Below, in pieces: positions 1,091-35,620 of a stretch of 64,000 nt of DNA (the stretch's first letter is position 1; each line of letters begins with the position of its first letter). Under the pieces are notes generated by a model. The model saw nothing but the letters and a program-made list of their open reading frames with translations. It was not told where the DNA came from and ran no database searches. The stretch is from contig JAFYXO010000019.1 of assembly GCA_017546125.1 (NCBI GenBank), positions 1 to 64,000 of the forward strand. The letters run 5' to 3'. Source of the stretch: Bacteroidales bacterium. Lineage in GTDB: Bacteria; Bacteroidota; Bacteroidia; Bacteroidales; UBA932. The translations under genes were made by a program, and so were the position numbers.

Positions 1091-1223
1091 TTTGGGCACG
1101 AATTTACAACTTTTCGTGCCCAAATTCTATTTTTTATACAAAATGGGCACAAAAACAGCTGTTTCCGTGCCCAAAGGGCAATTCCAGGGTGCTACGGGCA
1201 CAGAATCGGCCCTTTTTGTGCCC
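1091..1223. repeat. Three GGGCAC...GTGCCC palindromes
   Basis: Three successive hairpin-forming elements. First: arms 1091-1102 and 1113-1124 (TTTGGGCACGAA/TTCGTGCCCAAA, 12 bp perfect). Second: GGGCAC 1145-1150 with GTGCCC 1167-1172 around the inner palindrome AAACAGCTGTTT. Third: GGGCACA 1196-1202 with TGTGCCC 1217-1223. The same arm sequence recurs at 18821-18903, and the inner core resembles the 51-bp array at 12931-13469. They are probably REP-like elements. They are not simple terminators, because the flanking genes prmA and tpiA both run on the minus strand and the elements sit before prmA. Confidence 0.8.
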
Positions 1224-12554: not shown

Positions 12555-12926
12555 ATGGGAAAAGCTATAATGACCATCATTCTGTTGGTGGCATCAAATG
12601 TCTTTATGACACTGGCCTGGTATGGCCACTTGAAGCTGGCTGAATACAAATGGTTCAGTTCACTTCCACTTATCGGAGTGATAGCCATCAGCTGGATAAT
12701 CGCTTTCTTCGAGTACTGTCTTCAGGTACCTGCAAACAGAATGGGATTCATCGGTACCGGCGGACCATTCTCGCTGATGCAGTTGAAGGTGATTCAGGAG
12801 GTGATTACACTTACTGTCTTTGTGATTTTCAGCCTTGCGGTCTTCAAGACGGAGCAATTCAGACTCAATCACCTGATCGGTTTTGTCTTCCTCGTCCTGG
12901 CCGTCTACTTCATGTTCAAGAAATAA
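12555..12926 (+). CDS. DUF486 family membrane protein
   Basis: Small integral membrane protein of 123 aa with four hydrophobic segments (about 4-20, 34-52, 70-92, 100-120). It carries the family's conserved stretch FEYCLQVPANRMG, recognised as DUF486, related in shape to small multidrug-resistance/EamA-type proteins. The function is unknown. It is last in the run from psd to pyrF and ends immediately before the 51-bp repeat array, whose first unit could double as its terminator. Confidence 0.85.
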   Translation: MGKAIMTIILLVASNVFMTLAWYGHLKLAEYKWFSSLPLIGVIAISWIIAFFEYCLQVPANRMGFIGTGGPFSLMQLKVIQEVITLTVFVIFSLAVFKTEQFRLNHLIGFVFLVLAVYFMFKK

Positions 12927-12930
12927 AAGT

Positions 12931-13469
12931 CGGGGGCGGAATGATATTTTCTGCCCCCGATTTGTTAACAATCTCTCCCCGCGGGGGTAAAAGTGCCAGT
13001 TTCGCCCCCGAGTCACCAACATTCCTGTCCGGCGGGGGTAAAAGTGCCTGTTTCGCCCCCGAATGACCAATATTCCTATCCGGCGGGGGTAAAAGTGCCA
13101 GTTTCGCCCCCGAGTCACCAATATTCCTCTCCCGCGGGGGTAAAAGTGCCAGTTTCGCCCCCGAGTCACCAACATTCCTATCCGGCGGGGGTAAAAGCAT
13201 CAGTTTCGCCCCCGAGTCACCAACATTCCTGTCCGGCGGGGGTAAAAATGCCAGTTTCGCCCCCGAGTCACCAATATTCCTGTCCAGCGGGGGTAAAAGT
13301 GCTTGTTTCGCCCCCGAGTGACCAACTTTCCTATCCGTCGGGGGTAAAAGTGCCAGTTTCGCTCCAGAGTCACCAACATTCCTGTCCGGCGGGGGTAAAA
13401 GTGCTTTTTTTGCCCCCGAGTGACCAACATTCCTCTCCGGCGGGGGTAAAAATGCCAGTTTCGCCCCCG
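12931..13469. repeat. 51-bp palindromic tandem array, 11 units
   Basis: Units begin with CGGGGG at 12931, 12982, 13033, 13084, 13135, 13186, 13237, 13288, 13339, 13390 and 13441, an exact period of 51. Each unit is a 29-bp imperfect palindrome (arms CGGGGG/CCCCCG, core AAAAGTGCCAGTTT) plus a 22-bp linker beginning AGTCACCAA. The first unit has the same arms and register but a different loop and linker. Unit 9 (13339) has a damaged right arm (GCTCCAG), and the last unit ends after its palindrome. Because 51 = 3 x 17 and units lack stops, long frames of 17-residue repeats run on both strands; I regard these as by-products. The array lies between DUF486 (plus) and the HUH gene (minus). Confidence 0.95.
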
Positions 13470-13496
13470 CCTCCCAGATAGGCCGGACCGACAGAG

Positions 13497-14396
13497 CTAC
13501 TTTGAAGAAAGTGGGAACATACTGTCCACATCATAAATATCCATTCTCAGAATCCTGGATACCTGACTGTTGCTGGCATGGTAATCAAAATGCATACATT
13601 TTGCCAACTCGTACTTCGCATTGCTGTCCAACTTGGTCAGCGCAAATGTACCAAACCTGTCATAGCTGATTTTTCTCAGGACAGAATACATCTCATTATC
13701 TGATAGGTATAGAGAGTCACCTATCATTTGTGCCACTTCTTTATATGCCTCAACCCCCTTCGTAACAGATGAAAAGTAGTCGTGTGCATTATAGAAAAGG
13801 CTTTCAGCTTCCTTTACATGACAATACGATAGGGGAGAGATATATTCTTCTTGCATAAAGTAATGTGATGGACAATTAATGTCATGGCTATGAAACATGG
13901 CTCTTTTAACCTTATAGGGTAGAGAGCTATACAAGCCACCTGATGATATCGGCATATTGAAGAAGAACATATTGGCTCCCCAAGGATAGGTAAATGGGGT
14001 GTACTCCTTGTTGACAACATATCCGTTCCTGTTGATATATACAATATTGATCCTGAACTGATTGACATTTTCTATCTTTTTAATGCCATACTCGCAGGGG
14101 TGAATCTTATAACCTTTGAGATTGCAGAGCATCTTGGCCAATCTGCATTGGAATTCCTCAAAGAACACCCTTACTATATCAAGCTTACCTGAAATAAGGT
14201 AGTGGTGGTGATTATTCATCAGCTGGAAAGTGTACACAGTCACTTCCGGATATTTCCCGGCAAAAAGGGCTGTCAGATTCATCCCCAATACAAAATCCTC
14301 CTTGTCTCGATAGATATTGTCGCTCTCTTTTCCCGGTGTGTAGAGATGCCAGCAAGGACCATTTTTCTGGCATAATTCAATAAATTTTCTCTCCAT
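13497..14396 (-). CDS. RAYT-like HUH (Y1) transposase-family protein
   Basis: 299 aa. The N-terminal half has the Y1-transposase/REP-associated tyrosine transposase layout: a beta-strand histidine in WHLYTPG (His17), an IYRDKEDF segment, the metal-binding motif LMNNHHHYLI (His63 and His65; the usual form is MPNHVHLL), and a helix with the candidate nucleophile Tyr120 in NIVYINRNGY followed by TYPWGAN, which parallels YIhxNP..YPWSS of RAYTs. The C-terminal 150 residues are an extension with a possible helix-turn-helix near 262-290. No IS200-type ends or TnpB partner are visible, so it looks like a resident single gene. The stop codon is 27 bp from the last repeat unit. Confidence 0.8.
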   Translation of the reverse strand: MERKFIELCQKNGPCWHLYTPGKESDNIYRDKEDFVLGMNLTALFAGKYPEVTVYTFQLMNNHHHYLISGKLDIVRVFFEEFQCRLAKMLCNLKGYKIHPCEYGIKKIENVNQFRINIVYINRNGYVVNKEYTPFTYPWGANMFFFNMPISSGGLYSSLPYKVKRAMFHSHDINCPSHYFMQEEYISPLSYCHVKEAESLFYNAHDYFSSVTKGVEAYKEVAQMIGDSLYLSDNEMYSVLRKISYDRFGTFALTKLDSNAKYELAKCMHFDYHASNSQVSRILRMDIYDVDSMFPLSSK

Positions 14397-18810: not shown

Positions 18811-18864
18811 TGATACAAAATTTGGGCACGAAAAGTAGTGTTTTCGTGCCCAAATTGTATCAAA
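18811..18864. repeat. Long palindrome of the GGGCAC family (possible bidirectional terminator)
   Basis: AATTTGGGCACGAAAA (18819-18834) and TTTTCGTGCCCAAATT (18841-18856) form a perfect 16-bp stem with a 6-nt loop. The outer flanks TGATACAA and TTGTATCA extend the pairing after a 2-nt offset. It lies between the convergent M28 and rpe genes, so it may terminate both. Its arms are those of the elements at 1091-1223. Confidence 0.85.
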
Positions 18865-18873
18865 AACAACATT

Positions 18874-18903
18874 CGGGCACGAAAGTGGCTGTTTTGGTGC
18901 CCG
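18874..18903. repeat. Second GGGCAC-family palindrome
   Basis: CGGGCAC (18874-18880) and GTGCCCG (18897-18903) enclose GAAAGTGGCTGTTTTG. This core is close to the AAAAGTGCCAGTTT core of the 51-bp array and links the two repeat families. It is followed by TTTTT, so it could also end M28 transcripts. Confidence 0.8.
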
Positions 18904-34468: not shown

Positions 34469-35620
34469 ATGAGTCTGGAACTGGTCATAGAGGTTTTGAA
34501 GAATGCCTGTCTGGTGACAGGTCTGGTGGTGGTGATGATGATGACCATCGAGTACATCAATGTTCGCTCTGCCGGGAAATGGTTCTCTTCTCTGCAGAAT
34601 TCAAAGTTCAAGCAGGTGTTTCTCGGATCACTTCTGGGGCTGATTCCCGGTTGTGTCGGTGGATTTGCAGCAGTCTCACTCTATTCGCACGGACTGATAA
34701 GCCTAGGTGCCCTTGTCGCTGCGATGATATCCTCATCGGGGGATGAGTCGTTTGTGATGCTGGCGATGATTCCGCAGACAGCCCTCATCCTGTTTGGGGT
34801 GCTGTTTGTTATTGCCATGGCGGGAGGTCTGCTGGTGGACAAGATTTATAAAAAGGGTGCAGTCGTCAGTTGTGACCAGAAGTTTGAGGTGCACGAGGAG
34901 CATTCTCACGAAGTGGCAGAGGGGAGCAAAGGGGGATTTTCTCCGGTGAAGGTGATTATAGTGGCGGGGCTGGCCCTTTTTGCAGCAGCCCTGTTTACAG
35001 GTACGCTTGAGCATACCCATCAACATCCTCAGACGGCGGCGGAGGTGCTGCACGAAGGGGATATGCACCACGAAGCGGCGGAGGCCCACCACCACCATGA
35101 GCACCATGAGGCCCATGAGCACCACGGTCACCATCACGGCTCCATATCGCTGCTGGATGAGAGATGGATCAATATCCTTTTCGGGGTGATAAGTGTAGTG
35201 GTACTTCTACTTACATTAAATTCAAGTGAACATTTTGTCAGGGAGCATCTGTGGAATCATGTGATCAAAAAGCATTGCCTCTCAATTTTCCTCTGGACAT
35301 TGGGTGCATTGGCAGTGATACAGATCGGACTCCAGTATATTGATATCGAGCCGTGGCTGGAGGAGAACAAGTTTGTGGTGTTGCTGATAGCGGCTCTGAT
35401 AGGTATGATACCCGAATCGGGTCCACATATGATTTTTATAACCCTTTTTGCAGGTGGATATATCCCATTTTCAGTCCTGTTGGCAAGCTCAATATCGCAG
35501 GATGGGCACACCGCTCTTCCTCTGTTGGCTTCCGACAAATCGGGCTTTGTGAGGACCAAATTGGTAAATGCTTTAATAGCAGTGCTCTGCGGAGGGGCGT
35601 TAATGTTATTTGGTTTATAA
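34469..35620 (+). CDS. ArsP_2-type putative heavy-metal/manganese transporter
   Basis: 383-aa polytopic membrane protein with about ten hydrophobic segments in two similar halves. Each half has a Gly/Pro-Gly-containing helix followed by Ser-Ser-Gly/Ser-Gln-Asp-Gly: IPGCVGGF and SSSGDES in the first, IPESGPH and SISQDGH in the second, indicating an internal inverted-type duplication. A cytosolic or periplasmic loop at about 185-230 is extremely His-rich, consistent with metal binding. It belongs to the ArsP_2 group often named putative manganese transporter; substrate and direction are not shown. It starts 8 nt after meaB. Confidence 0.78.
   Translation: MSLELVIEVLKNACLVTGLVVVMMMTIEYINVRSAGKWFSSLQNSKFKQVFLGSLLGLIPGCVGGFAAVSLYSHGLISLGALVAAMISSSGDESFVMLAMIPQTALILFGVLFVIAMAGGLLVDKIYKKGAVVSCDQKFEVHEEHSHEVAEGSKGGFSPVKVIIVAGLALFAAALFTGTLEHTHQHPQTAAEVLHEGDMHHEAAEAHHHHEHHEAHEHHGHHHGSISLLDERWINILFGVISVVVLLLTLNSSEHFVREHLWNHVIKKHCLSIFLWTLGALAVIQIGLQYIDIEPWLEENKFVVLLIAALIGMIPESGPHMIFITLFAGGYIPFSVLLASSISQDGHTALPLLASDKSGFVRTKLVNALIAVLCGGALMLFGL

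Follow-up and report, generated by a model that had tools for sequence, protein, structure and literature searches.

A RAYT-like HUH protein gene of Bacteroidales with flanking and dispersed hairpins at a constant pitch of about 51 bp

The substrate of the IS200/IS605 transposase TnpA consists of two end hairpins that lie on the same strand. For REP/RAYT systems, the way in which REPs are spread by RAYTs and the nature of the moving unit are still open questions. REP clusters and tandem arrays beside RAYT genes have already been described in Pseudomonas; each REP family of P. fluorescens SBW25 has a pitch of its own (71 and 110 bp), and the doublets are inverted (PMC3116915). The RAYT of E. 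coli needs a mid-stem mismatch in the REP (PMC8266576). Of the subclasses described by Quentin and colleagues, subclass 2.6 from Bacteroidetes is flanked by atypical hairpins, and subclass 2.1 has a C-terminal domain and no REPs (PMC6006769).

The DNA analyzed here is a stretch of 64,000 nucleotides (the window) from contig 10 of a Bacteroidales genome of 1.86 Mb in 43 contigs (G000). It was compared with two sister species (G001 and G002) and with relatives named as Bacteroidales MAGs. Because the genomes compared are MAGs, unit counts in arrays may be imperfect. At 12932..13468 the window contains an array of eleven direct 51-bp units, each consisting of a 27-bp hairpin, GGGGG-N17-CCCCC, and a 24-bp linker. 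By eye and by pattern search the hairpins start at 12932+51n (n = 0 to 10) with zero indels, and TRF reported a single array at 12981-13469 with period 51, 87% matches and no indels, which confirms the eleven hairpin units at an exact 51-bp period described in an earlier note on this DNA. The loop of unit 1 differs, and in unit 9 (13340) the right arm is damaged. On one side of the array a DMT_6 gene ends at 12926, and on the other side ends a minus-strand gene for a protein of 299 aa (13497-14396), so the array lies between two converging genes; the gap between the array end and the stop of the latter ORF is 27 bp, as had been stated before. A protein-coding role of the array was rejected due to several overlapping open frames and the intergenic position. 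It does not qualify as a CRISPR array either, since the linkers of different units are homologous, where a CRISPR array would have unrelated spacers, and a single 51-mer is repeated throughout. In Rfam the window array had no match. A second hairpin family, GGGCAC-N16-GTGCCC, is present in the window as a cluster of three hairpins at 1094..1223 and as a doublet at 18824..18902, in both cases 51 bp apart. The folded-strand z-score was modest for one GGGGG unit (-2.1) and strong for the GGGCAC doublet (-6.3). At 35081-35134 the window also contains a short tandem repeat that reads as His-rich codons (CACCACCACGAGCACCAT).

The product of the minus-strand gene at 13497..14396 is a RAYT-like Y1 HUH protein, of which about 150 aa make up a helical C-terminal domain. 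The Y1 layout that had been read from the window alone, with H17, H63, H65 and Y120, was found at these positions, and all four residues are conserved without exception in two alignments, with 7 and 34 relatives; N124 is likewise invariant in the larger one. The AF2 model calculated from 34 aligned relatives has an HUH fold (pLDDT 87.5, pTM 0.73). The top Foldseek entries were the IS608/ISDra2 transposases and 4er8, and after re-alignment 4er8, the complex of the E. coli RAYT with a REP hairpin, ranked first with Z 12.6 over 154 residues, followed by IS608 TnpA with Z 7.7. When the PDB was searched with a sequence profile, ISDra2 alone was matched, below the threshold. The window protein matched no family in Pfam, NCBIfam, PADLOC or PHROGs and did not pass the models PF01797 and NF047646; its paralogues weakly match Y1_Tnp and the NCBI REP transposase model, two of them reaching about 23 bits with NF047646, where the cut-off is 80. 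The last ~65 residues are helical and weakly HTH-like, with structural matches all at E above 0.4. Modelled alone, the C-terminal domain reached a lower pLDDT (74.6) and none of its structural matches was significant, and Pfam showed no match to Bac_DnaA_C, HTH_23 or HTH_28 in the C-terminus. The genome encodes 12 homologues including the window gene, the closest other one being 46% identical. Orthologues with 98% and 82% identity are found at the same place in the two sister species. The plasmid and phage collections contained no homologue.

A genome-wide search for the CGGGGG and GGGCAC hairpins named in the earlier note showed that both families are dispersed and hence not confined to the locus. 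The GGGGGC-arm family has 22 hairpins in G000, and clusters of two to four also occur on its contigs 5, 6 (two clusters) and 25 as well as in the two sister species. The hairpin-linker-hairpin pattern was found 15 and 14 times on the two strands of G000 and 0 and 0 times in the reversed control. According to the pattern listings, 39 of 40 GGGGGC intervals in the three species are 51 bp long and one is 50 bp long. For the GGGCAC-arm family, with ~52 raw matches per strand in G000, all 30 intervals in the scanned stretches are 51 bp, and so are 24 of 24 with a stricter detector. Random sequence of the same composition (347 kb) contained zero similar-hairpin pairs; together with the empty reversed control this excludes chance as the source of the array pattern. 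Most hairpin clusters of the genome lie far from the RAYT-like gene. The linkers of the GGGCAC family have a mean identity of 43% (28.5% when shuffled) and a central T-run; they are homologous and have diverged strongly, while their length has stayed the same. In the GGGCAC stem, two mid-stem positions are paired in 31% and 26% of cases, more rarely than in shuffles (46% and 43%), which is reminiscent of the bulge in the E. coli REP. Covariation outside this stem looked convincing by eye and was not above shuffles; it is not claimed here. Neighbouring hairpins are mostly in direct orientation (66 direct, 9 inverted, 2 ties), and the stem asymmetry points the same way in 20 neighbours and the opposite way in one. 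The motif GT[AG]G occurs at the 5' foot of 9 of 124 hairpins, which is no enrichment over the 11.7 expected from shuffling, and is present in none of the 11 hairpins of the window array. Two further repeats were noticed during these scans. Next to a GGGCAC cluster on contig 31 of G000 (L232:1-600), a stretch whose translation repeats VSIHAPTWGAT looks like a CRISPR array, and contig 14 (45423-45570; L092:5424-5571) contains a dispersed repeat of another kind, ~150 bp long and ending in inverted repeats, which is matched with ~93% identity at many sites of G001 and G002.

Relatives of the RAYT-like gene were gathered by protein alone, disregarding repeats, and their flanks were then scanned for hairpins; pitch is given from centre to centre, with hairpins of ~25-41 bp and linkers of ~12-26 bp. 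Within 1.2 kb of the relatives, 57 of 59 pairs of similar hairpins less than 90 bp apart have a pitch of 49.5-53 bp, and 25 of 77 distinct relatives have at least one flanking pair at this pitch, both counts coming mostly from protein-fetched loci; a separate pooled pair count includes a few loci fetched for the pattern. Any other spacing from 30 to 90 bp was seen beside at most one gene each among the 77 relatives. In 52 of the 77 the detector found no 51-bp pair, some of them having single flanking hairpins only, and this weakens the explanation that we favor below. The letters of the hairpins differ between relatives. AAAAGMAC-type hairpins stand on both sides of the genes L125, L129 and L133 at 51-52 bp, CGAGCAGG hairpins form at least 12 units at 51-52 bp beside L198/L236, the first of them 16 bp after the gene, and CGTCCATG hairpins are 51 bp apart at L136/L189; hairpins with other letters beside L276, L269, L275 and L270 are nearly all spaced by 50-51 bp. 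When 200 genomes of the family were searched for the pattern, six of them, from three genera, had true GGGGG arrays with 51-bp pitch, and all six belong to the 30 genomes in which a close relative of the gene is encoded; in three of them (G045, G188 and G080) the array lies ~10-40 bp from the gene. Since these genomes are not phylogenetically independent, no formal probability was drawn from this overlap. The many GGGGG pattern matches in other genera are GC-rich noise without 51-bp layout and were not counted. That an in-register array right beside the gene is unusual, as the earlier note had held, does not stand in this form, because such arrays recur in this branch, and tandem REP arrays beside RAYT genes are also known in Pseudomonas (PMC3116915).

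In a tree of 34 proteins, like hairpins group together. The GGGGGC genes (window and L077) stand next to the GGGCAC gene (L007), and the genes with (C)TCCCGCG hairpins (L008/L009) and with AAAAGMAC hairpins (L125/L129/L133) form groups as well. L007, L008/L009, L012 and other paralogues have their own hairpins beside them, whose letters follow the protein clades, with hairpin families assigned to paralogues solely by proximity. The paralogues L009 and L012 carry the same hairpin on both sides of the gene. Two hairpin types, TGGTCCTTAACC and GATGTGCCCTGCAG, occur near the more distant paralogues L012 (G000) and L081 (G001), and at L012 both types are found on both sides. Two other repeats are unrelated, namely a ATTAGTGTCATTGACACTAAT palindrome array with 42-bp period (L155:1997-2190, G126 contig 206) and an 89-bp repeat at L093.

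Like the REP/RAYT (TnpA_REP) REPtrons of E. coli and Pseudomonas, the locus combines a Y1 HUH fold with gene-flanking palindromes that are also dispersed (PMC3116915, PMC6006769, PMC8266576), and as in REPtrons and REPINs there is one palindrome family per paralogue, with doublets and tandem arrays beside the gene. The REP/RAYT reading of the earlier note is well supported in so far as the HUH fold is nearest to a RAYT, the hairpins are dispersed and relatives are flanked by their own clusters. However, this is not a canonical RAYT. The system works like a REPtron, but two canonical features fail, because neighbours are direct, whereas BIME/REPIN doublets are inverted, and there is no GTRG guide. 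The family cut-offs are not reached, the same 51-bp pitch occurs in many unrelated families in contrast to the family-specific pitch of SBW25, the protein has ~300 aa, and a dozen homologues are encoded in 1.86 Mb. The earlier note had named three outcomes that would speak against its reading, namely hairpins confined to the locus, an unchanged array in genomes lacking the gene and a predicted structure without HUH fold, and none of them was obtained.

TnpA_Y1 subclass 2.6 comes from the same phylum, its NH[LIV]H-type motif is found in the paralogues, and its flanking hairpins are atypical, without GTAG and with copies elsewhere in the genome (PMC6006769). However, its proteins have a mean length of 179 aa compared to 299 aa and the motif YIH[QN]NP instead of Y[IV]NRNG, which in the window protein reads YINRNG; the parts of PMC6006769 considered here mention neither fixed pitch nor arrays for this subclass. 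Subclass 2.1 (TIRYT) likewise has long proteins, with a C-terminal domain that may be of HTH type, but is reported without nearby REP-like sequences and with terminal inverted repeats only (PMC6006769). The present branch has features of both subclasses, but its combination of length, motif and association fits neither of them. With TnpA of IS200/IS605 elements (IS608, ISDra2) it has in common the Y1 HUH fold and the direct orientation of the hairpins, but no whole-element copies are found here and the dispersed units carry no gene. The BrickBuilt MITE of Porphyromonas gingivalis also consists of tandem repeats dispersed in a Bacteroidales genome, but has a unit of 23 nt, no spacers and an always intergenic position, and the sections of PMC4596501 considered here do not mention a linked HUH gene. 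In the open-access literature we found no description of a 51-bp rule; subscription papers, some of them on RAYT classification, are outside this scope.

We consider it likely that the locus represents a REPtron-like unit and belongs to a divergent RAYT-like branch found in Bacteroidales, that the neighbouring and dispersed hairpins are its cognate sites, and that units of ~51 nt are handled by a dimer. The pitch shared by unrelated-looking hairpins points to an undescribed RAYT-like branch with a built-in length ruler. The gene product would be a Y1 HUH nuclease, the adjoining hairpins and their dispersed copies would be its cognate sites, and we infer that the array is a substrate of this enzyme. 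Most likely, a dimer would bind two hairpins that point the same way within one single strand of DNA, one per subunit, similar to IS200/IS605 transposases that bind two ends; single-stranded DNA could be available, for example, at the replication fork. Cuts at positions fixed relative to the hairpins would then allow single units of ~51 nt to be gained, lost or moved by cut-and-join, and the pitch of 51 nt would be set by the geometry of the dimer-hairpin complex. The data show the predicted fold, the invariant catalytic residues, the association of gene and hairpins, the dispersal, pitch and direct orientation of the hairpins and changes of copy number in steps of 51 bp, while dimer binding, the cut position and a causal role of the protein in these changes are inferred. 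The number of GGGCAC hairpins follows the gene only partly, as G002, in which the cognate paralogue was not found, has 25 raw matches, compared to 52 in G000 and 10 in G001, and this also weakens the proposal. The many protein-hairpin pairs that share a pitch of ~51 bp and differ in their letters form a natural series for studying what such an enzyme measures and where it cuts.

The hairpins could instead be a host feature, acting as two-way terminators or stabilisers of mRNA 3' ends, with arrays formed by replication slippage and the nuclease gene being a bystander or a user. In a rough ORF-based count most clusters indeed lie between convergent or tandem genes, and 0 of 26 classified clusters lie between divergent genes. 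At the window locus, where hairpin 1 is common to the three species and the total units are 11, 3 and 4, the copy number changes by whole units, as slippage would give, although unequal recombination could do so too. However, slippage is insufficient because it explains the copy changes and leaves the pitch shared by unrelated hairpin families, and the dispersed doublets, unexplained. Fixed-pitch pairs with other letters recur beside relatives in other genera, several clusters lie inside reading frames, and the T-run of ordinary intrinsic terminators is absent after the window units. Altogether, we regard a host feature as unlikely.

Rather improbable in our view is that the pitch reflects a ruler of double-stranded DNA, in which ~five helical turns would bring cruciforms or bound proteins to the same side of the helix and so serve chromosome architecture or gene repression. 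The range of 50-53 bp does bracket five turns at 10.2-10.5 bp, and the helical, weakly HTH-like C-terminal part of the protein would suit such a role, but the stem asymmetry and the same-strand orientation suggest strand-specific recognition, and gene repression cannot be the main role of clusters that mostly lie far from the gene. Highly improbable is an IS200/IS605-like transposon of gene plus flanking hairpins that moves as a whole and leaves behind or stacks its ends as arrays: the same hairpins do stand in the same order on both gene sides (L125, L129, L133, L009 and L012), one G001 site is without gene and the hairpins are direct as at IS200/IS605 ends, but the G000 paralogues are at most 46% identical to the window gene and recent copies are absent, the gene is found at the same position in three species, and the plasmid and phage collections gave no match.

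Differences between the sister species are also found at other sites. At 18.8 kb of the window, where G000 has the GGGCAC doublet, the sisters have arrays of the GGGGGC family at the same intergenic place. This difference at 18824-18902 could have arisen if one family replaced the other, if stems were converted or if the species share a hot spot of insertion. In the alignment with G001 contig 15 (93352-93480) and G002 contig 34 (19696-19875), the last hairpins are aligned. At the site of the paralogue L007, G001 has a single hairpin, and G000 has hairpins together with the paralogue gene. GGGCAC units are also found in frame within genes. The folC gene (L231:1354-2943) contains 3, 1 and 0 units in the three species, each of 17 codons, so that the repeats alter proteins between sister species. 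In uvrA (L221:1229-4225), three in-frame units lie in an insertion of ~80 residues relative to 2r6f, and further in-frame GGGCAC units are present in a priA-like gene (L226:683-2473) and on the N-terminal side of an alpha-L-fucosidase ORF (L224:646-2163). We tentatively speculate that a hairpin with its linker, ~51 nt in total, might be a mobile unit of single-stranded DNA that is built and trimmed stepwise at a fixed pitch by a dedicated HUH protein serving as molecular ruler, is written in many hairpin codes across Bacteroidales and, with its 17 codons here, grows in frame within genes such as folC and uvrA. Within folC, at L231 ~2129-2242, another stretch that is repeated elsewhere seems to have been inserted next to the hairpins.
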